Virus record (IMG/VR): IMGVR_UViG_3300009790_000092
Span: 1 to 21,790 of that record
DNA length: 21,790 nt
DNA from: a virus
Reading direction: 5' to 3' (one strand)
Part shown: piece after piece, positions 888 through 17,520 of the stretch
How positions within the stretch are numbered: the first letter of the stretch is position 1
Layout: every line of letters starts with the position of its first letter
The notes under the pieces: model-generated
The model's database searches: none
Told to the model about the DNA's origin: nothing
What the model saw: the letters and a program-made list of their open reading frames with translations, nothing else
Program-made: the position numbers and the translations under genes

Positions 888-3111
888 ATTATATACCAAA
901 TTAGTTGGAATCATTCCTAAAAATGTGCTTGTTAAAAAAAATAAAAGTGCAACTTGGAAATATGGATACAATGAAAAATATGACATTGTTGTTATATCAA
1001 AAACAGGTGAAATTGGAGATATAATAAAAATGAATGGTATAAATATTGCATTACCACTCCAACCAAAAAAAATTACTAAAAGACATAGTGCAACAAAGCA
1101 TCAATATTGGGAAAGGCACGAATACCCTAAATCACTAAAAAGAATTTCTACCATATTTCAATGGAACGACCAACCCAATACATTTAAAAACCAATGGATT
1201 GATTATATAGAACAAGAGTTTGATTATAGAGAATATGGGTATTGGTTTTACAATAACGGTATTCCGACATATATGACAGGTTCTCATTATATGTATTTAC
1301 AATGGACAAAAATTGATGTAGGTTATCCTGATTTTAGAGAAGCAAACAGATTGTTTTTTATTTATTGGGAAGCGTGTAGGGCAGACCAAAGAAGTTTCGG
1401 TTTATGTTATTTAAAAATAAGACGTTCCGGTTTTTCTTTTATGGGTTCTTCCGAATGTGTTAATACAGGAACATTAGCTAAAGATTCAAGGGTAGGTATT
1501 CTTTCTAAAACAGGTTCGGATGCTAAAAAAATGTTTACAGACAAGGTTGTGCCTATTGGAAGTAATTTACCATTTTTCTTTAAACCTATTCAAGATGGTA
1601 TGGATAAGCCAAAAACTGAATTAGCTTTTAGAGTACCTGCTTCAAAAATTACAAAGAAAAATATGTATACCGTTGAAGAGGAAGAGCTAGATGGGTTAGA
1701 TACTACTATAGATTGGAAGAATACTGATGACAACTCTTATGATGGTGAAAAATTATTATTATTAGTTCATGATGAAAGTGGTAAATGGCTAAAGCCAAAT
1801 AACATATTAAATAATTGGCGTGTTACTAAAACTTGTTTAAGGTTAGGTAGTAAAGTTATTGGTAAATGTATGATGGGCTCTACTTCCAATGCATTAAGTA
1901 AGGGGGGTGATAATTTTAAAAGTTTGTATGAAGATTCGGATAGTTCTAAAAGAAATGCGAATGGTCAGACAAAAAGTGGATTATATAATTTATTTATTCC
2001 TATGGAGTGGAATATGGAAGGGTTTATTGATAGATATGGAATGCCTGTTTTAGAAACCCCATCTACACCAATTTTAGGAATCGATAATGAAATGATTAGA
2101 ATAGGAGCAATTGAGTATTGGGAGAATGAGGTTGAATCATTAAAATCCGACCCTGATGCTTTAAATGAATATTACAGACAATTTCCTAGGTCTGAATCTC
2201 ACGCATTTAGAGATGAAAGTAAACAGTCATTGTTTAATCTAACAAAAATATACCAACAAATAGATTATAATGATTCATTAATAATTCAACATCATGTTAC
2301 TCAAGGAGGGTTTTATTGGAAAAATGGAATAAAAGACAGCGAAGTAATGTTTAAACCTGATAAACGAGGAAGATTTTTGGTTGGATGGACTCCATCAAAA
2401 CAACTTCAAAATAAATATTATATCCGCAATGGGAAAAAATATCCGGGCAATGAACATATTGGTTCTTTTGGATGTGACTCCTATGATATTTCAGGTGTTG
2501 TTGGAGGTGGAGGTTCTAATGGTGCTTTACATGGGATGACTAAATTTAATATGGATGACGCACCAAGTAATGAGTTTTTTTTAGAATATGTAGCAAGACC
2601 TCAAACTGCTGAAATATTTTTTGAAGAAGTTTTAATGGCTTGTGTATTTTATGGTATGCCAATATTATGTGAAAACAATAAACCTCGTCTATTATATCAT
2701 TTTAAAAACAGAGGGTATAGGGGTTATAGTTTAAATAGACCCGATAAAGTATATAATAAATTATCAAAAACAGAAAGAGAATTAGGTGGTATCCCTAACT
2801 CAAGTGAAGATGTAAAACAATCACATGCCGCAGCAATAGAATCATATATTGAAAAATATGTAGGTTTAGATTTTGAAGGAACATTTAGAGATTCCGAAGA
2901 TATGGGTACAATGTATTTTACAAAGACGCTTGAAGATTGGGCAAAGTTTGATATTTCAAATAGAACTCGTTTTGATGCAACTATAAGTTCAGGTTTGGCA
3001 ATAATGGCTAATCAAAAACACTTATATTTACCGACCAAAAAAGAGTCAAAAATAAGCATTAACTTTGCAAGATACACGAATACAGGAACATTAAGCAAAA
3101 TATTACAATGA
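865..3111 (+). CDS. terL: Terminase large subunit (ATPase-nuclease DNA-packaging motor)
   Basis: The 748-residue product pumps phage DNA into the procapsid and cuts it. The ATPase half shows a Walker A-like loop at residues 185-195 (IRRSGFSFMGS), a Walker B at 297-304 ending in D303/E304 (LLLLVHDE), and a coupling motif at about 337-340 (MGST). The nuclease half shows the acidic residues of an RNase H-like fold: D538 in GCDSYD, E603 in LCENNK and D649 in SSEDVKQSH. The loop has Phe where the usual GK(S/T) lysine sits. The start is uncertain. The frame opens with TTG at 865, and the first ATG (near 1030) would remove an N-terminal segment, including YDIVVISKTGEIGDI, that I recall as conserved in related terminases; GTG 925 is an alternative. 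The TGA stop overlaps the portal start as ATGA. Confidence 0.88.
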   Translation: MQKDVLNKLYTKLVGIIPKNVLVKKNKSATWKYGYNEKYDIVVISKTGEIGDIIKMNGINIALPLQPKKITKRHSATKHQYWERHEYPKSLKRISTIFQWNDQPNTFKNQWIDYIEQEFDYREYGYWFYNNGIPTYMTGSHYMYLQWTKIDVGYPDFREANRLFFIYWEACRADQRSFGLCYLKIRRSGFSFMGSSECVNTGTLAKDSRVGILSKTGSDAKKMFTDKVVPIGSNLPFFFKPIQDGMDKPKTELAFRVPASKITKKNMYTVEEEELDGLDTTIDWKNTDDNSYDGEKLLLLVHDESGKWLKPNNILNNWRVTKTCLRLGSKVIGKCMMGSTSNALSKGGDNFKSLYEDSDSSKRNANGQTKSGLYNLFIPMEWNMEGFIDRYGMPVLETPSTPILGIDNEMIRIGAIEYWENEVESLKSDPDALNEYYRQFPRSESHAFRDESKQSLFNLTKIYQQIDYNDSLIIQHHVTQGGFYWKNGIKDSEVMFKPDKRGRFLVGWTPSKQLQNKYYIRNGKKYPGNEHIGSFGCDSYDISGVVGGGGSNGALHGMTKFNMDDAPSNEFFLEYVARPQTAEIFFEEVLMACVFYGMPILCENNKPRLLYHFKNRGYRGYSLNRPDKVYNKLSKTERELGGIPNSSEDVKQSHAAAIESYIEKYVGLDFEGTFRDSEDMGTMYFTKTLEDWAKFDISNRTRFDATISSGLAIMANQKHLYLPTKKESKISINFARYTNTGTLSKILQ

Positions 3112-5543: not shown

Positions 5544-5571
5544 TAGCTTAAAATAATTATAACATATTGTT

Positions 5572-5579
5572 TAACTTTG
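5572..5579 (+). promoter_or_regulatory. Candidate promoter -7 element (TAACTTTG) before the scaffold-capsid unit
   Basis: TAACTTTG is an exact match to the Bacteroidota -7 consensus TAnnTTTG and lies in the 58-base gap between portal and scaffold, ending 22 bases before the ATG. A start point about 6-7 bases downstream would leave a leader near 15 bases. No TTG occurs at the usual 17-23 base spacing upstream; the nearest, at 5567-5569, is far too close. The same TA(A/T)CTTTGT form recurs at 9022 and 17096. Confidence 0.55.
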
Positions 5580-5601
5580 TACAAAATTAAAATTAAATCC
5601 A

Positions 5602-6681
5602 ATGAATCTAGAAAATATTAAAGTAAGAGAAGTTAGTGCACCTGAAAAAGGGAAAGCTGAAGTCGAACAAGAGCTTTTAGATAAAGCTGAAGAAAAAAAA
5701 GTTGTTGAAGAACAAGAAGTTGTTGAAGAGACAATAGTAGATACTCCTGCATTAGATGATAATACAGTTTTAGAGTATTTAGGAAAAAGATATAATAAGA
5801 CCATCAATTCATTTGATGAGTTGATGCAAGAAAGAGAGGAACAAGAAGCATTGCCTGAAGATGTTTCATCTTTCTTAAAATATAAAAAAGAAACAGGTAG
5901 AGGAATTGAAGACTATGTTCGTCTGAATAGAGACTTTGATGAATTACAACCTGATAATTTGTTAGCTGAGTATTATTTAGCAACTGATGAAGCTATAGAT
6001 ACAGAAGATGTAGACGATTTGTTAGATGAGTTTAGATTTGATGAAGATGTAGATGATGCTAAAGTTGTTAAGAAAAAAAGGTTAGCAAAAAAACGAGCTG
6101 TTGTTCAAGCTAAGAAGTATTTTAATGAACAGAAAGAACAATACAAACAACCCCTTGAGTCAAGTGCGGGAGTTAGTTCTGATGACAATAAAAAACTAGA
6201 AGAGTATGAACAATATCTCAAGAGTGTGAGAAGTAATGAGGAAGCGGCTAGAAAAAAGCAAGATTGGTTTTCTAAAAAAACTGACGAGGTTTTTTCAAGT
6301 GAGTTCAAAGGTTTTGAGTTTACCGTAGGCGATAAGAATGTTACCTATAGTCCGGGTGATGCATCTGAATTGAAATCTAAACAATCTAATGTTTTGAATT
6401 TTATAAACAAGTTTGTAGATGGAGAAACAGGATTGATGAAAGATGCACAGGGATACCACAGAGCTTTATCACTAGCTATGAATCCTGAGAAGTTTGCCAA
6501 ATTCTTTTATGAATTAGGTCAAGCCGAAGGAGTTGAAGATGTTGTCCGTAAAACAAAAAATGTTAGTATGGATATTCGTAAAACTCCCGAAACTGCAACT
6601 ACTCAAGGAGGAATGAAAGTTAGAGCTTTAAACACCGACTCAGGTCGAGGTTTGAAGATTAAAAGTATGAAAAAGAAATAA
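5602..6681 (+). CDS. Probable capsid scaffolding protein
   Basis: This 359-residue protein lies between portal and major capsid genes, the usual place for a scaffold. The N-terminal 60 residues are very acidic and predicted coiled coil (runs of Glu, Lys and Val). The middle (about 105-230) alternates acidic and basic helical stretches, and the C-terminus ends in a strongly basic tail (GRGLKIKSMKKK). Scaffolding proteins are typically highly charged, elongated helical proteins whose basic C-terminal segment binds the capsid protein during procapsid assembly and which then leave or are degraded. No catalytic motif is visible, and I see no protease signature such as a Ser-His pair. The start ATG lies 22 bases after a promoter-like element. 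A head-tail or decoration role is possible but less likely. Confidence 0.65.
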   Translation: MNLENIKVREVSAPEKGKAEVEQELLDKAEEKKVVEEQEVVEETIVDTPALDDNTVLEYLGKRYNKTINSFDELMQEREEQEALPEDVSSFLKYKKETGRGIEDYVRLNRDFDELQPDNLLAEYYLATDEAIDTEDVDDLLDEFRFDEDVDDAKVVKKKRLAKKRAVVQAKKYFNEQKEQYKQPLESSAGVSSDDNKKLEEYEQYLKSVRSNEEAARKKQDWFSKKTDEVFSSEFKGFEFTVGDKNVTYSPGDASELKSKQSNVLNFINKFVDGETGLMKDAQGYHRALSLAMNPEKFAKFFYELGQAEGVEDVVRKTKNVSMDIRKTPETATTQGGMKVRALNTDSGRGLKIKSMKKK

Positions 6682-6704
6682 GTAACAATTAAAAATTATT
6701 AATT

Positions 6705-8159
6705 ATGGCAGTATTAGCAAGTCCAACGTTTCAGTTGCAGCCAAGTGCTCAACAGGTAGCGTTGTCGTCAAACTATATTACTAATGCTCAATTTAACTTT
6801 TTGAATCAGTATCTTCCTGATACTTATGAAAAAGAGTTTGAGAGATATGGTAATAGAACTGTTTCATCATTCTTAAGAATGGTAGGAGCAGAAATGCCTT
6901 CTAACTCTGACCTTATCAAATGGGCAGAACAAGGAAGGTTACATATTAAATATGTAAACTGTGTCTTAGGTGGTGCAGGTGCAGGTGCAGCTTCAGAAAC
7001 TTTTACAGTTCCTGCAGCACAAATTGACCCTGCAAGACAACCATCAGGTTCAGTAGCACCGGCAGGTGCAGCAGGGCAAATCGGTATCAGAAAAGGTCAA
7101 ACAGTAATGATTTCTGATGATACAGCAGGTTCTGCATTAAACAACAAAGGTATTGTAACAGCGGTTACAGCTACTACATTTACTGTTGCAATGTATGAAG
7201 CAGCAGGTTTAGCAGCTTACGCAGGTACAGCATCAGTTTTCATCTATGGTTCTGAATTTAAAAAAGGAACTGTTGGAATGGAAGGTGGATTAATATCTAA
7301 CGACTTCATTTTTGAAAACTCTCCAATTATATTAAAAGATAAGTACCAAGTATCAGGTTCTGATATGGCACAAATCGGTTGGATTGAAGTTCAAACAGAA
7401 GATGGAGCAAGTGGATATTTATGGTATCTTAAATCAGAACACGAAACTAGATTACGTTTCGATGATTACTTAGAAACAGCGATGGTAGAAGCTGTACCGG
7501 CAGAAGCAGGTTCAGGTGTTGCTACTCAAGCAGTTTATGCAGATGCAGGTAACAAAGGTTCTGAAGGGGTATTCTACGTTGTAGAAGCAAGAGGTAACGT
7601 TTGGGGTGCAGGAAATCCGGCTGATTTAGCAGGATTTGATAGCATTATTCAAAGATTAGACAAGCAAGGTTCTATTGAAGAAAATGTAATTTTCGTAAAC
7701 AGAGCATTCTCGTTTGACATTGATGATATGTTAGCAGCTCAAAATTCTTATGGTGCAGGTGGTTCTTCATATGGACTATTTGACAATGATGAGGAAATGG
7801 CTCTTAACTTAGGATTTACAGGATTTAGAAGAGGTTACGACTTCTATAAGTCTGAATGGAAATACCTAAATGACCCAACAATGAGAGGTGGATTAGTAGG
7901 TGGAGCAATTAATGGACTATTAGTTCCTGCAGGTTCTACTACAGTTTATGACCAAATTTTAGGTAAAAACGCTAAGAGACCTTATTTACATGTTAGATAC
8001 AGAGCTTCAGAAGCTGAAGACAGACGTTATAAGTCTTGGATTACAGGTTCTGCAGGTGGAGCAACAAACAAAGATTTAGATGCAATGGAAGTTAACTTCC
8101 TTTCTGAAAGATGTGTTTGTACTCTAGGTGCTAACAATTTCTTCTTATTCAAGTCATAA
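6705..8159 (+). CDS. Major capsid protein
   Basis: This 484-residue product builds the icosahedral head. The call rests on position (after portal and scaffold), size, the strong terminator that follows, and signatures I associate with capsid proteins of Bacteroidota podoviruses: the N-terminal segment with YLPDTYEKEFERYGNRTVSS (residues 37-56) and the C-terminal MEVNFLSERCVCTLGANNFF (461-480). The core is expected to have the HK97 fold, although this cannot be proved by eye. Residues about 88-188 form an Ala/Gly-rich, beta-strand-like segment (IRKGQTVMI; GIVTAVTATTFTVA) that looks like an inserted small barrel domain. The DNA for residues 89-95 carries a short GGTGCA triplication. The leader is A/T-rich with no Shine-Dalgarno sequence, so expression probably depends on the upstream element at 5572 and low leader structure. 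Confidence 0.85.
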   Translation: MAVLASPTFQLQPSAQQVALSSNYITNAQFNFLNQYLPDTYEKEFERYGNRTVSSFLRMVGAEMPSNSDLIKWAEQGRLHIKYVNCVLGGAGAGAASETFTVPAAQIDPARQPSGSVAPAGAAGQIGIRKGQTVMISDDTAGSALNNKGIVTAVTATTFTVAMYEAAGLAAYAGTASVFIYGSEFKKGTVGMEGGLISNDFIFENSPIILKDKYQVSGSDMAQIGWIEVQTEDGASGYLWYLKSEHETRLRFDDYLETAMVEAVPAEAGSGVATQAVYADAGNKGSEGVFYVVEARGNVWGAGNPADLAGFDSIIQRLDKQGSIEENVIFVNRAFSFDIDDMLAAQNSYGAGGSSYGLFDNDEEMALNLGFTGFRRGYDFYKSEWKYLNDPTMRGGLVGGAINGLLVPAGSTTVYDQILGKNAKRPYLHVRYRASEAEDRRYKSWITGSAGGATNKDLDAMEVNFLSERCVCTLGANNFFLFKS

Positions 8160-8176
8160 GAAGTGTATATATAATT

Positions 8177-8207
8177 AAGGGAGGATTAACCTCCTCCCTT
8201 TTTTTTT
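8177..8207 (+). terminator. Intrinsic terminator after the major capsid gene
   Basis: A perfect 8-bp stem (AAGGGAGG at 8177-8184, CCTCCCTT at 8193-8200) with an 8-base loop runs straight into nine T (8199-8207). A competing smaller hairpin, GAGG/CCTC with a five-base loop, is nested inside. It lies 18 bases after the capsid stop codon and should cap a very abundant capsid transcript, while allowing some read-through to the next gene. Confidence 0.88.
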
Positions 8208-8229
8208 AATCTAATTAAATTTAAATAAA

Positions 8230-8979
8230 ATGAAAAAGACAAAAGAATTTGTAGATAAAGTCTACCGTTTAGTAGGCGATAAATATCCCTTATCTTTTAT
8301 GTTGGCTACACAACACAGTAGAAGATTCCCATTAATGCATTTTGATAAAGAGACAGGTGTTAACAAACCTATGCGTTATGCTAGAAACCAAAAGTCTCCA
8401 TTTGTTGACGACCAAGACGGTAATGTTATTTTAGAACCAATTGTGTTTGAAGATGGTATGCTAGTAGTTGCCAAAGAAAATCAAGTGTTACAAGAATTTC
8501 TTTCTATACATCCACAAAACGGTGGCGTATTTGAAGAGGTTGATAAAGGCAAAGAAGCAGCTGAAGATGTAGAAACATTATACGCTGAAGTAGATGCATT
8601 AATTCTTGCAAGAGAAATGACGTTAACACAGCTCGAAACTATTGGTAGAGTTTTGTTTGGAGATATTAACAAACTAACTACAGCTGAATTAAAAAGAGAT
8701 ATGCTAGTATTTGCTAGAAGACATCCTTCAGATTTAGTAAACATGGTTAATGACCCAATGTTAAAATTATATTCTAAGGTTCAATTATTCTTTGACAATA
8801 AACTATTGGTTTATAGAAATGGAAAAAAAGATGTGCACTTTAACACTTCTTCTAACAAGAAGAGAATGGTTAGTGTTCCATACGGAGAAGACCCTGTGTA
8901 TATAGTATCATCATTTTTACAATCTGATGATGGAATAGAAGCATTAAAACTACTTGAAAAACGCTTGGAAGACAAGTAA
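8230..8979 (+). CDS. Conserved-looking virion-associated protein of unknown function
   Basis: The 249-residue product has two parts. Residues 1-105 look beta-rich (FPLMHFDKETGVNKPMRYAR, then VILEPIVFEDGMLVV). Residues about 110-190 are acidic and helical (ETLYAEVDALILAREMTLTQ), with a short C-terminal alpha/beta region. I recall similar proteins directly after the capsid gene in Bacteroidota phages but know no function. Position suggests a head-associated role such as capsid decoration, portal vertex or assembly factor. There is no signal peptide, membrane segment or catalytic motif that I can see. The gene lies between two intrinsic terminators and has no TAnnTTTG element of its own in the 22 bases after the first, so it is probably expressed by read-through at a level below the capsid protein. 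Confidence 0.6.
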   Translation: MKKTKEFVDKVYRLVGDKYPLSFMLATQHSRRFPLMHFDKETGVNKPMRYARNQKSPFVDDQDGNVILEPIVFEDGMLVVAKENQVLQEFLSIHPQNGGVFEEVDKGKEAAEDVETLYAEVDALILAREMTLTQLETIGRVLFGDINKLTTAELKRDMLVFARRHPSDLVNMVNDPMLKLYSKVQLFFDNKLLVYRNGKKDVHFNTSSNKKRMVSVPYGEDPVYIVSSFLQSDDGIEALKLLEKRLEDK

Positions 8980-8985
8980 TTTGAG

Positions 8986-9018
8986 AAGGGGATGAAAAAA
9001 TCATCCTCTTTTTTTTTT
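8986..9018 (+). terminator. Intrinsic terminator closing the capsid region
   Basis: A 10-bp stem with one G-U pair (AAGGGGATGA at 8986-8995, TCATCCTCTT at 9001-9010) encloses an A5 loop and is followed by T10 (9009-9018). It begins seven bases after the stop codon of the preceding gene. The next promoter-like element starts four bases after the T-run, so this is a clean boundary between two transcription units. Confidence 0.88.
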
Positions 9019-9021
9019 GCT

Positions 9022-9029
9022 TATCTTTG
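9022..9029 (+). promoter_or_regulatory. Candidate promoter -7 element (TATCTTTG) before the connector-tail unit
   Basis: TATCTTTG matches the Bacteroidota -7 consensus TAnnTTTG. It ends 15 bases before the ATG at 9045, implying a leader of only about 8-10 bases. The place where a -33 TTG would lie (about 8996-9004) is occupied by the loop and 3' arm of the preceding terminator and holds no TTG. The identical octamer occurs at 17096. Confidence 0.6.
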
Positions 9030-9044
9030 TAAAAAAGATAACAG

Positions 9045-9782
9045 ATGATACAACAGGTTTATGATGCTGTTCTTGCTATATTGAATAAGAATAACTACGG
9101 TTACTTATCACCTGCAGATTTTAATTTATATGCCCAACAAGCACAATTAGATTTGTTTGAAGATATATTTTATCAATATAACGCTCAAGTCACTAAAGAA
9201 AACTTAAGAGGGTCAGGTACAGGTTATGCAGATATTAAGAAAGGTATTGTTGAAGTAATTGATATGTTTTCAGTTACTGCAGCATTGAATCATTTAGCTA
9301 ACAATACTTACAGTATGCCATCTACTCCAACCACAGGTTCTGATTTTTATTTTATAAACAAAGTTTTATGCTATGATGCGGCAGGTGTTACTTTTACAGG
9401 TGAAGCAGAGAGAGTAAGTCAAGCTAAAATAACATTATTAAATAATTCTTTATATACAGCACCAACAACTACATACCCTGCTTACACTACTGAAGGTAGT
9501 GTAATGACTGTGTATCCATCATCAATTATACTTGCGGGTCAAGTACAGGCACAATACATAAGATATCCGGCTACTCCACAATGGACATATGTTTCTTTGG
9601 GTGCAGCTCAACAACCACAATTTAGTGTAACAGCTAGTTATCAAGATTTTGAACTACCTCTAGATTATTTTCAAGATTTAGTAAATAAAATATTACAATT
9701 TGCAGGTATGGAAATTAGAGATGGAGAAATAGTCCAATTTGCTTTAGGACAAGAACAGATTGAAAACCAAGATGAACAATAA
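9045..9782 (+). CDS. Head-tail connector / ring-type protein 1
   Basis: This 245-residue protein is first in the tail unit. The N-terminal helical region (VYDAVLAILNKNNYGYLSPA, residues 5-24, then NLYAQQAQLDLFEDIFYQYN) and the distal pattern with TVYPSSI, QAQYIRYP and ELPLDYFQDLVNKILQFAGM (198-217) recall proteins found between capsid and nozzle genes in short-tailed Bacteroidota phages. In podoviruses this slot encodes small adaptor rings that bind below the portal and close the head (compare P22 gp4 or T7 gp11). The C-terminal helix is amphipathic and acidic, fit for ring contacts. It overlaps the next gene by one base (TAATG), so translation is probably coupled. Assignment to adaptor rather than another neck protein is inference. 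Confidence 0.6.
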   Translation: MIQQVYDAVLAILNKNNYGYLSPADFNLYAQQAQLDLFEDIFYQYNAQVTKENLRGSGTGYADIKKGIVEVIDMFSVTAALNHLANNTYSMPSTPTTGSDFYFINKVLCYDAAGVTFTGEAERVSQAKITLLNNSLYTAPTTTYPAYTTEGSVMTVYPSSIILAGQVQAQYIRYPATPQWTYVSLGAAQQPQFSVTASYQDFELPLDYFQDLVNKILQFAGMEIRDGEIVQFALGQEQIENQDEQ

Positions 9783-10705
9783 TGGCTTATATAACAGACT
9801 ATCAATATTATACAAATAACAATACCACTCCGCAAGATGCTAATTGGGGGTCATATCAATATATAAGTTTAGAAGATGTAGTGACAAACTTTCTGTTGAT
9901 GTATAATGGAAACCATTCATTAGTGAACAATGAGGAAAGGTTTAAAATTTTGTTTCATGCAAAAAGAGCAATACAAGAATTAAACTATGATGCATTTAAA
10001 GAAATCAAAGCATTAGAACTTCAAATAACAGATACTCTTAGATATGTTTTACCTCAAGATTATGTAAATTGGGTAAGGGTTTCTATGTATTATGATGGGT
10101 ACTTACGTCCATTGGTAGAAAATGTTCAAATCAATTCTGCAAGTGCGTATCTTCAAGACCATCAAGGTAATATATTGTTTGACCATTTAGGTAATATTTT
10201 AAAACCTGAGTATTCAGAATTGACTAGACAAAGATTAACAGGGGTTCAAAAAACACAATATTTAAATCAAGGTGCTCCATATGACGGATATTGGGGTTAT
10301 TGTTTAGATGGTTTTTGGTATTTTGACATGGCAATAGGAGCGGCATGGGGATTAAATACCGAAACTGCAAATGCAAACCCTACATTTACTATAGATAAAA
10401 AAGCGGGGGTTATAAACTTTAGCTCTGCTATGAATGATAAATTGGCTATTTTAGAATACATCTCAGATGGAATGGAAAATGGAGATGATTCTAAAGTAAC
10501 AGTAAATAAAATGTTTGAAGAGTACATTTATGCTGCTATTGAATTTGGCATCTTAAATAGCAAACTTGGAGTTCAAGAATACATTGTAAATAGAGTTAGA
10601 AAAAGAAAATTAGCTTTATTAAGAAATGCAAAATTAAGACTGAGCAATATACATCCGGGTCGTTTGTTACAAAATATGAGAGGTCAAGATAAATGGATAA
10701 AGTAA
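9782..10705 (+). CDS. Head-tail connector / ring-type protein 2
   Basis: This 307-residue product is marked by segments I associate with a structural protein conserved in crAss-like and other Bacteroidota podoviruses: YISLEDVVTNFLLMYNG (residues 27-43), RFKILFHAKRAIQELNYDAF (53-72) and LPQDYVNWVRVSMYYDGYL (94-112). The C-terminal 60 residues form helices (KMFEEYIYAAIEFGILNSKL) ending in a very basic run (RVRKRKLALLRNAKLRL), plausible for contact with portal or DNA. It starts on the last base of the preceding stop codon and ends two bases before the nozzle gene. It probably forms a neck ring between portal and nozzle, functionally similar to P22 gp4-type tail accessory factors. The precise ring assignment needs a structure comparison. 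Confidence 0.65.
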   Translation: MAYITDYQYYTNNNTTPQDANWGSYQYISLEDVVTNFLLMYNGNHSLVNNEERFKILFHAKRAIQELNYDAFKEIKALELQITDTLRYVLPQDYVNWVRVSMYYDGYLRPLVENVQINSASAYLQDHQGNILFDHLGNILKPEYSELTRQRLTGVQKTQYLNQGAPYDGYWGYCLDGFWYFDMAIGAAWGLNTETANANPTFTIDKKAGVINFSSAMNDKLAILEYISDGMENGDDSKVTVNKMFEEYIYAAIEFGILNSKLGVQEYIVNRVRKRKLALLRNAKLRLSNIHPGRLLQNMRGQDKWIK

Positions 10706-10706
10706 G

Positions 10707-13700
10707 ATGGCAAAATTACAAAGAAATTTCGTACAGGGCAAAATGAATAAAAGCGTTGATGAACGCTTAGTTCCTAATGGACAATACATAGATGCTTTAA
10801 ATGTAAGACTTGGTTCTACTGAAGATTCTGAAATAGGTTCGGTAGAAAACTCTAAGGGAAACACACAGCTTACTACATTAACTTTTAACGGGACGAATCT
10901 GAGCAATCAAGCAAGATGTATTGGTGCTTATGAGGATGGAGCTAATCAAACAATTTATTGGTTTGTACATGACCCTGCGTATACCGTAGGTGCAGCAGGT
11001 AAAATAGATATGATTGTTTCATATGATGCACAAGTTGATACAGTAACTTATCATGTGATTACCATGGATGACGCAACCGGCAACCAAACTACTATATTAA
11101 ATTTCAACCCTACATATTTAATTCATAGTGTAAATAAAATAGAAGATTTACTTTTTTTTACAGATAATTATAATCCTCCGAGATTTATAAATGTTAAAAG
11201 AAACTATCCTAACCCTTTTGGAAATATTGACCAAGTAAGTGCAGAATCATTATTGGTTGTAAAAAAACCCCCTATTACTAGTCCTTCTTTTAATATGTAT
11301 ACTGCTTCAGGTGAAAATACGTTTTTGGAAGACAAACTACTTTGTTTTGCTTATAGATATGAATATGGAGATAATGATTTTTCGGCTACTTCTCAATGGT
11401 CAAAAGCAGCTTTTATTCCAAAAGCATTTGGTATAAGTAGTGCTTCGTATACAAATGAAGGAATGGAAAATAGTAGAAATGGAGTTGAGATAACATTTAA
11501 CACAGGAGGACCTTTAGTAAAAGGAGTAGAGGTTTTATTTAAAAACTCCGGTGATGACGTAATTAAAGTTATTGATAATTTTGATAAAGCTGAATATGGA
11601 TATACTGATAATCAAGATGTTACAATAACTTTTAACAGCAATCAAATATTTACTGTACTACCAACTGACCAAATAGGGAGATTATTTGATAATGTTCCTT
11701 TAAAAGCTGCTACACAAACAATGATTGGTAATAGAATAATATATGGTAATTATTTTGAACAATACAATATGGTTGACTACGCAGGTAGTGAAGTTATTTT
11801 AGATTATTCGATAGCATTAGCAAGTGAAGTTGTAGGTCAATTTGCATTAACTGAAACTAAAATAAGTTCTGATTATACTTTTGACCCCACTTCAGGAACA
11901 CAATCTATAGCTGATTCTGCAGTTACAATAGATTTTACTGACATAAGTTTAGTTCAAGGTGGTTTATTAGAAATAGATATTATTTTTAATCACGCACAAT
12001 TTACAGGTTCAGGAGGACCTACAGCCCAAACTACATCAATAAATATAGGATTTGGATTTAATTTAGTTAATAATTATCCCAATGCTTTAGCATTAGCTAC
12101 CTCAACAGAGTTTATTAATGCTGTTGGAACATCTTCAACAGTATCCACTATAGCTAACGCTTGTACCGGAAACACATGGACAGATACATGGAATTGTGAT
12201 ATGCCAAACAACTTAGATACTTATTTTGCTTACAACTCAGGAATTACTCCTGAAGCGTATCCTAATGTTGGACCTATTAACATAATAACTGACCCTGCAA
12301 ATGTTAATCAGTTTACTCTTCAATTTCCTGCTATGGCTTGGTCGGATTGTGATGCCGCATCCTGTACACCTGCAAATATTGTGTATGAGTATTTTAAAAT
12401 TGGTAGTGTAGATGCACAATATAGAGAGCTTTCTGAAACTGAAAGTTTACATAGTGACTTTGATTATGCAGTCGGTATTGTATATATGGATGAATTTAAT
12501 AGGTCTTCACCTGCATTACTTGCACCTGAAGCGAGTCTTCATGTACCTTGTAGTGCGTCAATGTTGAAAAATAGAATAGATGTTACTATACCTACCGAAA
12601 TGAATCCTCCGGTTTGGGCACATCGATATAAGTTTGTTTTAAAACCAACTAACACCACATATAATACTATATATACTAATATATTTTTTAATGACCCTGC
12701 AACATCTGCTACATATTTATTATTAGAAGGGGAGAATAATGAAAAAGTTAGTGAGGGTCAAAGATTAAAAGTTAAGGCAGATACCAATGGTGCTTTGGGT
12801 AGATGTGCTTATGCTACGATATTAGAAAAAAAATCTCAAGCTGCAGGATTTGTAAAAGTTCCATCTTCTCTCAACCCTTCAACGGATATTGATGCACCTG
12901 CAGGAACATATGCAAAAGTTGTTGCCGATGATTTTACAGTTGTAACTTTAAATGAAGATGGGACAGAAGCATCGGAATTAGCGGTTATAGAAGAAAAACG
13001 TTCTACTTATACCGATACTGCAGGTAATTCTGTATTTAATGCTTTACTAGTAAATACATGGGATGCAGCAAACACAAATTATGTGGACTATGATGTACCT
13101 CAAGGTAGTAGAATTAATTTGTATATTAAGTTTGAAAGAAGAGGTCCGGGTAAAGGTAATGGAAATTGTGAAAGGAGAATATATACTCTTGACTTAAAGT
13201 TAACTTCAAGTTCAACTTATTCTAATTTTGCTGAGTGGTTTAATGGAGATAATATACAAGAATATTTAGATGGAGGAGATTGGGAAGGTGGTGATACAGC
13301 AGCAGGAAATCCTCCTGAAAACATTTATGATTCAACCTTATTAACTGCTGCTTTTGACAGAATACCTACTAGCGGCGAAGCTCAAATGACGGCAAACTCG
13401 GTAACTAAAAATAAATATAAATTTGTAAGAAGTTCAACGGATAACGGTTTATGGTTTTGCACTACAGGAACAGAAAGTTGTAGCGGTGTATTTTCTAAGA
13501 AAAAAAGAAGGTCTTCAAGTGAAATGTCTGTTATTGTTTTTAGAGCTGAAAGCACACTTATATTTGAATCAGAACCACAAGAAGCATTGCCTGATGTATT
13601 TTTTGAAGGAGACCAAAGTTATCCAATCATTAATCCCGGTCTATCTAATGCAAGACATGGCGGAGGGACAGCTACTCAAATAACTAATGGTAATGTAACT

Positions 13701-15278
13701 CAGACGGGTGTTACTGCAGGTTTTATAAAAAGTACATTATATAATTGTTACACCTTTGGAAATGGTGCAGAAAGCTATAAAATATTAGATAGGTTAGGAG
13801 GTGCTGAGTTAGCACCGGGCAATAGGGTTGTAACGGTTTCTCAACAAGATTACAGGGAAATGCATAGATTTGCTGATTTAACATATAGTGGTAGATTTAG
13901 TAATGAGTCAAATATAAACCGACTTAATGAGTTCAACTTAAGTATCTCTAATTTTAAAATCCTTGAAGATTCTTTCGGTTCTATTCAAAAATTATTTGGT
14001 AGAGAAACCGATGTATTAGTATTACAAGAGGATAAGATTTCATATGTACTTGCAGGTAAAAATTTATTATCGGATTCAGCAGGTGGAGGTCAAATAACTT
14101 CTGTGCCTGAAATATTAGGTACGCAAATAGCTAGAATTGAAGAGTTTGGTATTAGTCATAATCCGGAAAGTTTTGTTTGTTATGGAAGTGAAAAATATTT
14201 TACTGACGCAAAAAGAGGTGCAGTAATTTTATTATCAGGAGTAACTGCACAATCTGAACAACTTGCAGTAATATCTGAATTAGGTATGCGTGGATGGTTT
14301 AGAGATTTATTTATAGAGAGTTTTTCAACTCAAAAACTTGGTGGATACGACCCTTATATGAATGAATATGTGTTGTCCAATAACTGTATTGAGTTACCTC
14401 AAATTCCACAAGTTGAAAATTGCGGTATACAATTGACATACAATAAGTTAAAAGCAGCAAATACACCAAGAAGTTTTACAGTTGAGCTTGGACAACCGCT
14501 AGGTGAGGTGACACTAACATATACTGTACCGATTTTAGCTGCAGGTTTAACATTTAAAATAGATGTTGTATACGCAGGAGTTACTACTTCCACAGGTGAT
14601 GTAACTGTAGGAGGTACTTTAACATTTGATAAAAATGATTTATCAATCAACACTTGTCTAGTTACTCTAACAGTTGGTGATGTCGGGTCTACGGGGGGTC
14701 AAATAGATGGTCTAAACCTTGGTGTTAGTTGTCCATCACCCAACACAATAACAGTAAAAGCTATAGTTATTACTACAGACGCAAACGCAGGTTTAACAAT
14801 TAGAAGGGGTTATAATTACACCGACAATAGTGTTTCTTATCCATCCAATATTGAACAGGTAATAATGACATCAGGTACTTCAACTCCATTAGTATCTAGC
14901 TTTTATAGCATTACAGGGTATCAAGGAATTAATTCTATTCCTGTTAATGGTTCAACAGTACAAATATTTTCTTTAAAGAAACCTGACGACACTTATACTT
15001 TTGACGTAACAAGTGATAGATTTGGGTATTTAAGAAGTGCAACAAATTATAATAATAATAGTACCGATTTAAATAATTTATTAACAGCTATAACAAGTGC
15101 TAGTAATTGGTTGACTACCAACACATCACTAGCTCCGGGTAAATATTATGGGGATTTTACTATGGATGCCACTAGCAATGATTATTTATATTTGGTATAT
15201 GATTTAAGAACAACTACAAATGTAAGTTTGTGTTACTCAAACACTTCATTTAACGACGCATGTTGTGGGTGTTCATAA
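10707..15278 (+). CDS. Giant nozzle / tail stabilisation protein, apparently lacking its usual C-terminal domain
   Basis: At 1,523 residues this is the largest gene in view. The N-terminus (KMNKSVDERLVPNGQYIDAL at 12-31, then NVRLGSTEDSEIGSVENSKG) and later segments (LLFFTDNYNPPRFINVKRNY near 150; a GISHNPESF...KYFTDAKRGAV block at about 1150-1175; GMRGWFRDLF near 1193; GGYDPYMNEYVL near 1212) fit the beta-propeller nozzle family related in role to P22 gp10 and T7 gp12. These proteins form the tube of the short tail through which DNA leaves. After about residue 1225 the sequence changes to Thr/Ser/Val-rich beta domains and ends in a cysteine cluster (C1509, then ACCGC at 1518-1522). In relatives I expect the propeller to continue after the GGYDP segment. 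That continuation seems to be encoded separately at 16256. Confidence 0.8.
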   Translation: MAKLQRNFVQGKMNKSVDERLVPNGQYIDALNVRLGSTEDSEIGSVENSKGNTQLTTLTFNGTNLSNQARCIGAYEDGANQTIYWFVHDPAYTVGAAGKIDMIVSYDAQVDTVTYHVITMDDATGNQTTILNFNPTYLIHSVNKIEDLLFFTDNYNPPRFINVKRNYPNPFGNIDQVSAESLLVVKKPPITSPSFNMYTASGENTFLEDKLLCFAYRYEYGDNDFSATSQWSKAAFIPKAFGISSASYTNEGMENSRNGVEITFNTGGPLVKGVEVLFKNSGDDVIKVIDNFDKAEYGYTDNQDVTITFNSNQIFTVLPTDQIGRLFDNVPLKAATQTMIGNRIIYGNYFEQYNMVDYAGSEVILDYSIALASEVVGQFALTETKISSDYTFDPTSGTQSIADSAVTIDFTDISLVQGGLLEIDIIFNHAQFTGSGGPTAQTTSINIGFGFNLVNNYPNALALATSTEFINAVGTSSTVSTIANACTGNTWTDTWNCDMPNNLDTYFAYNSGITPEAYPNVGPINIITDPANVNQFTLQFPAMAWSDCDAASCTPANIVYEYFKIGSVDAQYRELSETESLHSDFDYAVGIVYMDEFNRSSPALLAPEASLHVPCSASMLKNRIDVTIPTEMNPPVWAHRYKFVLKPTNTTYNTIYTNIFFNDPATSATYLLLEGENNEKVSEGQRLKVKADTNGALGRCAYATILEKKSQAAGFVKVPSSLNPSTDIDAPAGTYAKVVADDFTVVTLNEDGTEASELAVIEEKRSTYTDTAGNSVFNALLVNTWDAANTNYVDYDVPQGSRINLYIKFERRGPGKGNGNCERRIYTLDLKLTSSSTYSNFAEWFNGDNIQEYLDGGDWEGGDTAAGNPPENIYDSTLLTAAFDRIPTSGEAQMTANSVTKNKYKFVRSSTDNGLWFCTTGTESCSGVFSKKKRRSSSEMSVIVFRAESTLIFESEPQEALPDVFFEGDQSYPIINPGLSNARHGGGTATQITNGNVTQTGVTAGFIKSTLYNCYTFGNGAESYKILDRLGGAELAPGNRVVTVSQQDYREMHRFADLTYSGRFSNESNINRLNEFNLSISNFKILEDSFGSIQKLFGRETDVLVLQEDKISYVLAGKNLLSDSAGGGQITSVPEILGTQIARIEEFGISHNPESFVCYGSEKYFTDAKRGAVILLSGVTAQSEQLAVISELGMRGWFRDLFIESFSTQKLGGYDPYMNEYVLSNNCIELPQIPQVENCGIQLTYNKLKAANTPRSFTVELGQPLGEVTLTYTVPILAAGLTFKIDVVYAGVTTSTGDVTVGGTLTFDKNDLSINTCLVTLTVGDVGSTGGQIDGLNLGVSCPSPNTITVKAIVITTDANAGLTIRRGYNYTDNSVSYPSNIEQVIMTSGTSTPLVSSFYSITGYQGINSIPVNGSTVQIFSLKKPDDTYTFDVTSDRFGYLRSATNYNNNSTDLNNLLTAITSASNWLTTNTSLAPGKYYGDFTMDATSNDYLYLVYDLRTTTNVSLCYSNTSFNDACCGCS

Positions 15279-15453
15279 AATAAAATAAATGGGATTAACA
15301 GTATCAAAATATTTAGACGGACCAACTTTTGCAACAGCAACTGCTGTGTATGATGATGCAACTTTAACAACAAAAGCTGCTGATGGTTGGTATATGGAAA
15401 ACAATAAATACCGAAGACAAAGTGCCGGAGTGCTTCAAGGACTTGTAGTTTGT
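15231..15453 (+). repeat. Tail module copy 1, divided across a gene boundary
   Basis: The region joins the last 15 codons of the nozzle gene (CYSNTSFNDACCGCS) and residues 1-55 of the next product. Read together as protein, they resemble the contiguous module at 16015-16236. A TAA, a 10-base spacer and a change of reading frame separate the halves. Similarity was judged by eye on about eight shared positions. Confidence 0.45.
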
Positions 15454-16245
15454 CCAAGTTGTAATGAAACTTGTAGAACAAATGGTCAAGCACCATTATC
15501 AGCAGGTGAGGGAACAATTGCAATAGACCAAGGAGCAGGGGTTTATTATGTTACTTTTCAAACCGGAACAGGAATAGGTACATTGAGAACTTTTATTGAT
15601 GATTTATCAACCAAAGCGTATGGTATACAGATTAGTCATAATAGCACACTTTATAATAAATGGTCAGATGTAGATAACGGCTATCAATCTCCTGCAAGTG
15701 GATTAAATGCTATATGGTTAGGAGATTCATCTATAGGACCTACTGCAGGAACAGCGTACTCAAGCCAACCAACATTTATTTGGGATGGAGCTGCATGGGT
15801 TTCAGGTAGCACAGTAGCTTATAGTGTTAATAGTGCCGGAACTAATTATACAGCAAATCCGGGGATTACTATGGCGGCTGTACCAAAAACATTTTCTAGC
15901 AACACTACATTAACTCTGACAATATTTAGACCTCCGATAGTAGGGATGGGAGATACTAATGTAGGGCTTATGTGTCCTGACTTACTACCTGCTATACCAT
16001 ATAATACTACTGTATTTGCAAATGCAGTTGATGCATGTAATGCAATAGGAACAACGGGGTCTTTTTATTCCGCAGGTTTTGGTTCATCAAATGCTTTAGC
16101 ACAATTAAATGGATTTGCATTTACAAATTATTATGGAACTACAGCACTTAGTGCAGGTTATTATAAAATTAGTAGTGGAGGTAATGGGTATATGCAAGTA
16201 TCTAGTAACGGAACAATTATAGCTATAGGTAGTTGTCCTCCTTAA
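15289..16245 (+). CDS. Modular cysteine-containing tail protein
   Basis: This 318-residue, Gly/Ser/Thr/Ala-rich beta protein follows the nozzle by 10 bases. Residues 8-55 (YLDGPTFATATAVYDDATLT, then DGWY...YRR...VVC) and residues 243-316 (DACN at 248-251, LNGFAF, TTALSAGYYK, NGTIIAIGSC) look like two copies of one module of the type found in tail fibre or tail tip proteins of Bacteroidota phages. Between them (about 74-190) lies a further beta domain (GVYYVTFQTGTGIGTLRTFI; PTFIWDGAAWV). Cysteines cluster at C55, C58 and C62. The first module lacks the cysteine-containing beginning that the second has; that beginning is present at the end of the preceding gene. It is probably a tail surface or receptor-contact component. 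No enzymatic motif is visible. Confidence 0.6.
   Translation: MGLTVSKYLDGPTFATATAVYDDATLTTKAADGWYMENNKYRRQSAGVLQGLVVCPSCNETCRTNGQAPLSAGEGTIAIDQGAGVYYVTFQTGTGIGTLRTFIDDLSTKAYGIQISHNSTLYNKWSDVDNGYQSPASGLNAIWLGDSSIGPTAGTAYSSQPTFIWDGAAWVSGSTVAYSVNSAGTNYTANPGITMAAVPKTFSSNTTLTLTIFRPPIVGMGDTNVGLMCPDLLPAIPYNTTVFANAVDACNAIGTTGSFYSAGFGSSNALAQLNGFAFTNYYGTTALSAGYYKISSGGNGYMQVSSNGTIIAIGSCPP
16015..16236 (+). repeat. Tail module copy 2, contiguous
   Basis: It encodes residues 243-316 of the tail protein: DACN, then a LxGxxF segment, TTALSAGYYK, and a closing NGTIIAIGSC. It is the intact counterpart of the divided copy at 15231-15453. The resemblance is at protein level; the DNA copies are well diverged, so this is not a recent duplication. 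Confidence 0.45.
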
Positions 16246-16255
16246 AATTAAAAAT

Positions 16256-17089
16256 ATGAGTTGTCAAAATTACACATTAAGTTATAGTAGTGGAGTTCAA
16301 GGGTTTCCATCCTTTTATTCTTTTCATCCAAATTATATGATAGGAATGAATAATTATTTTTATTCCTTTAATCAAGGAAATATATATAGGCATAATTCCA
16401 ATACTGTGAGAAATCAGTATTATGGTACAAATTATAGCTCTACAATAACAAATGTTTTTAATGATAATCCATTAGAGAGTAAGCTGTTTAAAACTATATG
16501 TTTAGAATCAGATTCCCCTTGGGATGTAGATTTTACAAGCGATGTTCAAACCACAGGTTTTATTGCGGATGAATCTTTTGTGAAAAAAGAAGGTGCGTAT
16601 TTTTCGTATTTAAGAACTGAAGGTGCTACAACAGGTTCAGGTACGCCGATAGATTCTAAACAATATCCTTTACGTTCTATTCAGGGAATTATGAATAGTG
16701 CAGCACGAGGAGGTACGGTAGGGAATCCAATAGTACAATTTGATATAGGAGTTAATGCTAATATGGCAACATATATTAATCCACAAATTGTAGTAAATGA
16801 CTATTTGTATTGGAGTGATGTAACTCAAGCAAATCCTGAACTTACTTACGCAGGGCAAATACAATCTATTTCATATTCAGCTATAAATGGTATAGTTTCA
16901 ATATTAATAGACGCTGCAGGAGCTGCGGTTATTCCTGCAGGAACTCTGTATTTTGCAGCTGTTAAAAACCAAATTGCAGAATCTTATGGTATCTTAGGAC
17001 ATTATGGCAGGTTTAAGTTAACTAACAATACAACACAAGCTACAGAACTATTTGCAGTTCAGTCAGATGTTATGAAAAGTTATCCTTAA
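16256..17089 (+). CDS. Nozzle C-terminal propeller segment encoded as a separate tail protein
   Basis: The 277-residue product opens with YTLSYSSGVQGFPSFYSFHP (residues 6-25), MIGMNNYFYSFNQGNIYRHN (28-47) and a YYGTNY...NPLESKLFKTICLES run, followed by FVKKEGAYFSYLR (108-120). It ends with IAESYGILGHYGRFKLTN near 235-252 and an ELFAV...MKSYP close. I associate this order with the C-terminal part of nozzle or stabilisation proteins in crAss-like and related phages, where it follows the GGYDP...EYVL segment in the same chain. Here it is its own gene, about 2 kb downstream of that segment. It should assemble with the 1,523-residue protein into the tail nozzle. The ATG is preceded by an A-rich, SD-less leader. 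Its homology is inferred from recalled sequence patterns. Confidence 0.65.
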   Translation: MSCQNYTLSYSSGVQGFPSFYSFHPNYMIGMNNYFYSFNQGNIYRHNSNTVRNQYYGTNYSSTITNVFNDNPLESKLFKTICLESDSPWDVDFTSDVQTTGFIADESFVKKEGAYFSYLRTEGATTGSGTPIDSKQYPLRSIQGIMNSAARGGTVGNPIVQFDIGVNANMATYINPQIVVNDYLYWSDVTQANPELTYAGQIQSISYSAINGIVSILIDAAGAAVIPAGTLYFAAVKNQIAESYGILGHYGRFKLTNNTTQATELFAVQSDVMKSYP

Positions 17090-17095
17090 AATTAG

Positions 17096-17103
17096 TATCT
17101 TTG
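17096..17103 (+). promoter_or_regulatory. Candidate promoter -7 element (TATCTTTG) giving a near-leaderless mRNA
   Basis: An exact TAnnTTTG match, identical to the element at 9022, lies in the 20-base gap before the GNAT-like gene. It ends six bases before the ATG at 17110, so a start at normal distance would fall on or next to the start codon. No TTG lies 17-23 bases upstream; the nearest TTTG is at 17051. It should drive the GNAT gene and the internal virion genes that follow. Confidence 0.55.
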
Positions 17104-17109
17104 TGCTAA

Positions 17110-17520
17110 ATGAAATTTAATATTAGGGTACTTAAAGAAAACGACTATAATGATATCCTAGTTCCTTGGTGGAAAGATTGGGGTTGGACACCTCCGGTAA
17201 AAGATTTTTTACCACTAAACGGGCTTGGTGGTATCATGATAGAATGGCAGGGAGCTCCGGTTTGTGCGGGTTTTGTAATTCAATCAGATACTAAGGTTGC
17301 TTGGGTCGATTGGATTGTATCTAGTAAAACATTTAGAGAAAAGCCACATAGAAGGGACGCACTCCATTTGTTGGTACAAACATTAACCGATGTAGCGAGA
17401 GAAAGAGGAAATAAATATGTTTATGCATTAATTAAAAACTCCCCTTTAGTTGATGTTTATCTTAACAACGGATATGTGAAGGGAGATAATTATAATTTTG
17501 AAATGATAAAAGCAATATAA
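17110..17520 (+). CDS. GNAT-fold N-acetyltransferase-like protein
   Basis: The 136-residue product has the GNAT layout: an N-terminal beta-alpha unit (IRVLKENDYNDILVPWW), a central beta hairpin (GIMIEWQGAPVCAGFVI; KVAWVDWIVSSKTF), a long helix (ALHLLVQTLTDVARERG, 84-100), a strand (YVYALIKN), and a final helix-strand with VDVYLNNGY. The family moves an acetyl group from acetyl-CoA to an amine. However, the loop that should carry R/QxxGxG/A reads FREKPHRRDA (75-84), with no glycine, so cofactor binding is uncertain. Similar proteins recur inside the tail clusters of Bacteroidota phages, which hints at a virion-linked role. It is followed after one base by the next gene. Confidence 0.72.
   Translation: MKFNIRVLKENDYNDILVPWWKDWGWTPPVKDFLPLNGLGGIMIEWQGAPVCAGFVIQSDTKVAWVDWIVSSKTFREKPHRRDALHLLVQTLTDVARERGNKYVYALIKNSPLVDVYLNNGYVKGDNYNFEMIKAI

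Follow-up and report, generated by a model that had tools for sequence, protein, structure and literature searches.

Three short elements in a viral contig of 21,790 bases, IMG/VR record IMGVR_UViG_3300009790_000092 (hereafter the window, meaning this whole stretch), are very likely promoters read by the primary sigma factor, sigma-A, of the phage's host. They match TAWCTTTGT, stand immediately before three blocks of virion genes and differ from the promoters that precede replication genes in related phages. We assign a probability of about 0.5 to the joint reading that they are late promoters of host sigma-A which work independently of a −33 box, perhaps with the help of an additional factor. 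The sequence itself shows the −7 box, where it lies and the split between the two promoter classes, and it is from the box that we infer the use of host sigma-A.

TAWCTTTGT matches the window exactly three times, always on the plus strand, at positions 5572, 9022 and 17096. The predicted elements are as follows.

5572..5580, plus strand: TAACTTTGT, predicted −7 box of the scaffold-capsid promoter, predicted transcript start about 5584, leader 18 nt.
9022..9030, plus strand: TATCTTTGT, predicted −7 box of the connector-tail promoter, predicted transcript start about 9034, leader 11 nt.
17096..17104, plus strand: TATCTTTGT, predicted −7 box of the promoter for the GNAT-like gene and internal virion proteins, predicted transcript start about 17108, leader 2 nt, near-leaderless.

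All three lie inside the 266 intergenic bp that make up only 1.23% of positions 119-21789, and their octamers begin 30, 23 and 14 bp before the start codons of the scaffold-position, connector-position and GNAT-like genes, respectively. The original prediction, made from the letters of the window alone, had proposed that each element heads a functional block, that all share C at position four and T after the octamer, and that none has TTG 17-23 bases upstream, and each of these points was borne out. No TTG was found at a gap of 17-23 in any of the three (0/3); over the 46 bp before the octamers, TTG occurs solely at gaps of 2, 38 and 39. The prediction also held these to be the only intergenic TAnnTTTG octamers; all three are indeed intergenic, but there is a fourth, TAATTTTG, on the minus strand at 5582-5589. 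The count of the nonamer is by itself unremarkable (1.16 expected in shuffled sequence, with 9 of 100 shuffles reaching three); it is the placement that is remarkable. The nonamer is not equally frequent within genes: in IMGVR_UViG_3300030376_004672 (50,231 bases, capsid protein 100% identical), which is near-identical to the window and extends it, all four TAWCTTTGT matches are intergenic and on the late strand, in a record that is 96.8% coding. The looser word TAnnTTTG occurs 43 times in the window (33.8 expected), mostly within genes, and TAACTTTG is also found within genes at 553, 3060, 20991 and 21321 on the plus strand and at 13614 on the minus strand. A sigma-70 promoter scan of the window gave 90 matches against 90.9 in shuffles, and is uninformative for this phylum.

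We assessed conservation of the sites among relatives, which by capsid protein identity include the uncultured podovirus MW202828 (66%), Maribacter phage Panino (52%), the Flavobacterium elemo phages (47%) and Cellulophaga phages, among them phi38:1 (capsid 38%, connector 31%). Those relatives whose host is on record infect Flavobacteriaceae genera. The first set, in which we located orthologous starts, comprised 80 IMG/VR loci together with the window and three named phages; loci were dropped if the alignment started after residue 25 or the start lay less than 80 bp from a contig end (110 bp in the held-out set). TAnnTTTG lay at most 60 bp upstream of 59 of 65 scaffold, 70 of 70 connector and 18 of 19 GNAT starts, compared with none for the major capsid protein (MCP, 0/82), g10 (0/59), g12 (0/32) and TerL (0/36), and few for g7 (2/78), g11 (2/35), g9 (8/66) and g14 (2/9). 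Several scaffold junctions without the octamer keep TAACTTTA. A held-out set of 82 loci, 38 closer to the window and 44 closer to the elemo phages, remained after 23 of 105 new loci were dropped as near-identical to the first set; near-duplicates were removed at 16 or fewer mismatches in 66 positions here and in the class comparison below, and at 12 or fewer in 60 in one site alignment. Within this set, TAHHTTTG preceded scaffold starts in 27/30 window-near and 16/16 elemo-near loci, connector starts in 25/26 and 32/32, and GNAT starts in 4/4 and 8/8, while the negative controls gave 0/38 and 0/43 for capsid, 0/46 for g10 and 1/25 for g12. The base following the octamer was mostly T in loci near the window and mostly C near the elemo phages. 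That the elements are not promoters, and reflect chance, coding constraint or a leader RNA element, would fit a nonamer count within chance, but such conservation at specific junctions in divergent relatives and held-out loci, in non-coding DNA and in a single orientation, leaves this explanation with next to no probability.

TAnnTTTG is also common at the portal junction (49/56, mostly TAACTTTG), but there it lies inside TerL codons (window 3060, ISINFARY) and was not counted as a promoter. The TAACTTTG at window 3060-3067, 48 bp before the portal start and present in most relatives, may be an embedded promoter or a product of protein conservation alone.

The octamer is the −7 box of Bacteroidota sigma-A, TAHHTTTG, which makes host RNA polymerase (RNAP) its likely reader. 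The Bacteroidota primary sigma factor reads a −7 TAnnTTTG and in Bacteroides also a −33 TTTG (PMC7366714); in Flavobacterium johnsoniae the box is TAHHTTTG, many transcripts begin 4-5 nt beyond it and a −33 motif is far harder to discern (PMC6847099); and in Flavobacterium psychrophilum three sigma-A sub-motifs surround TAnnTTTG (PMC9723704). All three window sites fit TAHHTTTG, and the octamers listed at the three junctions have no G at position 3 or 4. Since the −33 motif is weak in F. johnsoniae too, its lack in the window lowers the case for a canonical two-box promoter and not that for reading by sigma-A. Host promoters in this phylum often have no recognisable −33, so that a missing −33 alone demands no activator, and the original prediction, which reasoned from that absence, had an insufficient basis. 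Our host sample, five genomes obtained through Bacteroidota-titled metagenome-assembled genomes (G012, G013 and the order-mates G016-G018), stands in for, and is not, the true host. In these genomes the density of TAHHTTTG ahead of starts exceeded that within coding sequence by about 8 to 39 times, and their −33 signal was weak: among 229 sites, TTG occurred at a gap of 17-23 in 51 (26.4 in shuffles) and at a gap of 19-21 in 23 (11.6 in shuffles).

The significance of the missing −33 is restored by a contrast between replication and late promoters within the phages. Replication-module loci were gathered using primase-like and exonuclease-like proteins, and intergenic octamers before starts on that strand were taken; an octamer entered the class and host samples only if it had at least 6 intergenic bases and an ATG start 10-60 bp downstream, and the elemoF table left out one small coding sequence (9543-9659) and the tRNA. 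On the replication strand, TTG stood at a gap of 19-21 in 20 of 42 dereplicated sites (shuffle mean 1.9, with 0 of 400 shuffles reaching 20), with a peak of 14 sites at gap 20 and the consensus ATTTGG-N18/20-TATATTTGTA. On the late strand it did so in 9 of 151 sites, which is chance level (shuffle mean 9.8). The opposite tendency was seen for a C in the fourth position of the octamer (C4), present in 110/151 late sites versus 7/42 replication sites (Fisher 7e-11). Both differences persisted with one site per gene family, TTG being found in 2/29 late versus 17/34 replication sites (Fisher 2e-4) and C4 in 20/29 versus 4/34 (Fisher 5e-6). Among the remaining octamers, those on the replication strand of these replication loci had TTG at gap 19-21 in 41/260, a control that probably still includes unlisted promoters and dropped duplicates, and those on the late strand of late loci in 19/487. 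The 23 opposite-strand sites in replication loci were late-like in TTG (2/23) and mixed in C4 (9/23). An earlier, smaller contrast over 13 records gave C4 in 55/89 late-strand versus 4/21 other-strand sites; for TTG at a gap of 17-23 the figures were 10/89 versus 6/21. A separate count of two-box words over 13 records found 8 for the late strand versus 21 for the opposite one, compared with 15 and 7, respectively, for words with control spacing. The 50-kb near-identical relative carries a replication-strand site of the form TTTGG-N19-TATATTTGTAG. We therefore consider it likely, with good confidence, that late and replication promoters form distinct classes in this phage clade: the late class would be TA(T/A)CTTTG(T/C), dispensing with the −33 TTTG contact, and about half of the replication-strand promoters would keep ATTTGG. 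The suggestion of a late-promoter class thus stands, since its members recur in held-out loci and are set apart from replication-strand promoters by C4 and the missing −33 TTG.

Some late promoters carry another word at the would-be −33 position, and in the window it is seen at the scaffold-capsid promoter.

5546..5552, plus strand: GCTTAAA, candidate late upstream element, 26 bp before the octamer at 5572.

CTTAAA (one mismatch or none) starts 25 bp before the octamer at 13/34 scaffold promoters (shuffles, maximum 5) and at 16/29 promoters of a second late group, that of a small gene between g7 and the connector gene (shuffles, maximum 4), compared with 0/42 replication sites and 2/44 connector sites when positions −27 to −23 are considered. 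Held-out scaffold sites near the window likewise peaked at −25 (8/18), and this is the sole independent count, as the word was spotted on the very sites in which it was then counted. An upstream box common to all late promoters was sought and not found, the region being a terminator hairpin at connector sites and coding DNA at GNAT sites. The small extra gene has its own late-type promoter in many relatives (for example L037:6621) and is absent from the window.

These arrangements raise the possibility that the −33 position is merely occupied: a terminator runs directly into the connector promoter, and the 3' end of the upstream gene into the GNAT promoter, so that TTG could not be kept there. 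Two terminators are predicted in this part of the window.

8177..8207, plus strand: intrinsic terminator after the major capsid gene (−14.8 kcal/mol, z −2.7).
8983..9018, plus strand: intrinsic terminator, hairpin and T-run (9009-9018), RNA fold −15.7 kcal/mol, z −4.2.

The connector octamer begins 3 bp past the T-run of the second, a T-run adjoins the octamer in 69/151 late sites versus 2/42 replication sites, and the −33 region of the GNAT promoter codes for a conserved C-terminus, all as expected from occupation. However, the scaffold promoter lies in free intergenic DNA in most relatives and still has TTG in only 2/34 sites (0/18 and 0/3 in the held-out loci). The lack of TTG in open DNA weakens this explanation, which we regard as improbable. 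An inverted repeat at the connector site, TTATCTTTgtaaaAAAGATAA, folds in the window, but only parts of it are kept in relatives and it was not used.

With the transcript start placed 12 bp after the first base of the octamer, the predicted GNAT leader is 0-3 nt in 17/18 orthologues (12 nt in Panino) and in 8/12 held-out loci. Leaderless messages amount to 5.5% in F. psychrophilum (PMC9723704), and the near-leaderless predicted GNAT transcript (window 17096-17110) is unusual for flavobacteria.

The original prediction had also allowed for a phage-directed polymerase, and this was not upheld. A phage-encoded RNAP or sigma factor with its own specificity could account for the difference between the late and replication classes, and crAss-like phages, which also infect Bacteroidota but form another group, have a virion polymerase (PMC8375218). 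Against this, the word is the host −7 box, and three families were each matched in 0 of 14 phage records, 10 of which are IMG/VR contigs and possibly fragments: PF00940 (T7-type RNAP; the T7 positive control matched), PF00623 (Rpb1-type; controls matched 14/14, with sensitivity to crAss-type enzymes not established) and PF04545 (sigma region 4; the control matched, and a sigma factor without region 4 would be missed). A giant protein closes the virion operon, downstream of the GNAT genes (L143:2540-11350, 2,936 amino acids; 3,859 in MW202828). Pfam gave no support for its being a virion RNAP in MW202828, the window fragment or phi38:1, and the MW202828 protein matched no Pfam family above the cut-off. 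Very divergent enzymes could escape these searches, and we consider a phage polymerase or sigma factor highly improbable. The replication module of the near-identical relative encodes two proteins resembling DnaA domain IV (PF08299) on the minus strand (L143:12703-13269 and L144:527-835), which are kept in 8/12 and 10/12 other records, one of them exceeding the Pfam cut-off; a role for either at late promoters is conjecture.

Under the reading we favour, host RNAP with its primary sigma factor (sigma-A, of the sigma-ABfr type) would read the three nonamers as −7 boxes and produce the scaffold-capsid, connector-tail and GNAT-internal virion protein operons. Early in infection, the host holoenzyme would prefer the two-box replication promoters, and the late promoters would fire once the polymerase no longer needs contact between sigma region 4 and −33. 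This could come about through a phage-made or phage-altered factor that substitutes for the contact at −33, where some late promoters have GCTTAAA, or through the increase in template number after replication. We give somewhat less than an even chance to a factor beyond the host holoenzyme driving the late class. More tentative, and on balance doubtful, is a two-step programme on one unchanged host sigma factor, in which replication promoters would use ATTTGG/TATATTTGTA and late promoters a single TATCTTTGT box (with GCTTAAA at −33 in some), the latter being read only once a phage factor takes the sigma region 4 contact.

The sites may instead be ordinary constitutive host-type promoters, in which a strong −7 box in AT-rich DNA suffices, the missing −33 has no regulatory meaning and replication promoters carry a −33 simply for immediate strength. 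We hold this to be a serious possibility, clearly short of even. It agrees with the F. johnsoniae promoters with hardly any −33 motif (PMC6847099) and with the three F. psychrophilum sub-motifs (PMC9723704). It leaves unexplained the excess of C4 in late sites over the host sample (110/151 versus 49/229, p 9e-24) and the constant spacing between CTTAAA and the octamer in two late groups that are unrelated to each other. An explanation by a host subclass was rejected, as C4 did not go together with the absence of TTG within the host genomes (TTG in 5/49 versus 18/180, p = 1.0).

Several observations count against −33-independent late promoters with a helper factor. TTG at gap 19-21 is not significantly more frequent in the host sample than in late sites (23/229 versus 9/151, p = 0.19), such that a factor is perhaps unneeded, and 22/42 replication-strand sites have no TTG at that gap either. 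In MW202828, a replication-strand TATCTTTGT without TTG precedes a DnaA-like gene, and the label 'late' itself derives from gene content and strand. CTTAAA is rare at connector promoters (YTNAAA at −26/−27 in 2/44) and GNAT promoters (1/8); in the second late group, some members have it within the loop of a terminator and others, by our reading of the codons, within the 3' end of the upstream gene, so that coding constraint may be a partial alternative there. No activator was identified, and MotA/AsiA homologues were not searched for.

The remaining content of the window is that of a virion gene cluster, with PHROG matches to TerL, portal, scaffold-position, capsid, connector and tail proteins. 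The genes next to the three promoters are listed here.

5602..6681, plus strand: scaffold-position gene (PHROG 16786, function not assigned in PHROG).
6705..8159, plus strand: capsid-position structural protein (PHROG 13704).
9045..9782, plus strand: connector-position structural protein (PHROG 14543).
17110..17520, plus strand: GNAT-like gene (PHROG 17252, unknown function; no Pfam match at E 0.05).

The MW202828 homologue of the GNAT-like gene is annotated as an N-terminal acetyltransferase subunit. Upstream of TerL, an open reading frame at 119-622 has weak similarity to 2OG-Fe(II) oxygenases (Pfam E 7e-4, below the cut-off). Contigs of this phage clade (L091, L093 and L096) were found within public metagenome-assembled genomes labelled Aliivibrio, Aenigmatarchaeota and Pseudomonadales, for which mis-binning is probable.

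The window sites share the −7 box, its distance to starts and the AT-rich surroundings of Bacteroidota sigma-ABfr promoters, and differ from them in that late sites have no −33 TTG above chance and a strong C4 preference. The middle promoters of phage T4 operate by MotA/AsiA sigma appropriation; as at those promoters, a host −10-type box is kept and the second host box is missing, and in some (scaffold and one other group) a different, candidate word lies near −30, whereas the promoters described here serve virion genes and no activator was identified. They resemble T4 late promoters in having a single-box architecture for virion genes, but the box here is that of the host primary sigma factor, and no protein with sigma region 4 was found, although a gp55-like sigma factor could escape. 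In the crAss-like phages phi14:2 and crAss001, which also infect Bacteroidota, middle and late genes are believed to rely on host RNAP (PMC8375218); no polymerase family was found in the phages studied here, which are elemovirus and callevirus relatives. A search of the open-access literature returned no description of promoter classes for these phages.

How Bacteroidota phages time their genes using the unusual sigma factor of this phylum is poorly described. The split between classes hints at a timing switch between replication and late genes and, if true, would represent a Bacteroidota counterpart of sigma appropriation. It is testable in cultured members, namely the elemo phages on Flavobacterium sp. 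BAL314 and phi38:1 on Cellulophaga baltica, and would point to a candidate late factor. The late sites are also a possible source of very compact promoters for a phylum in which standard Escherichia coli promoters fail.

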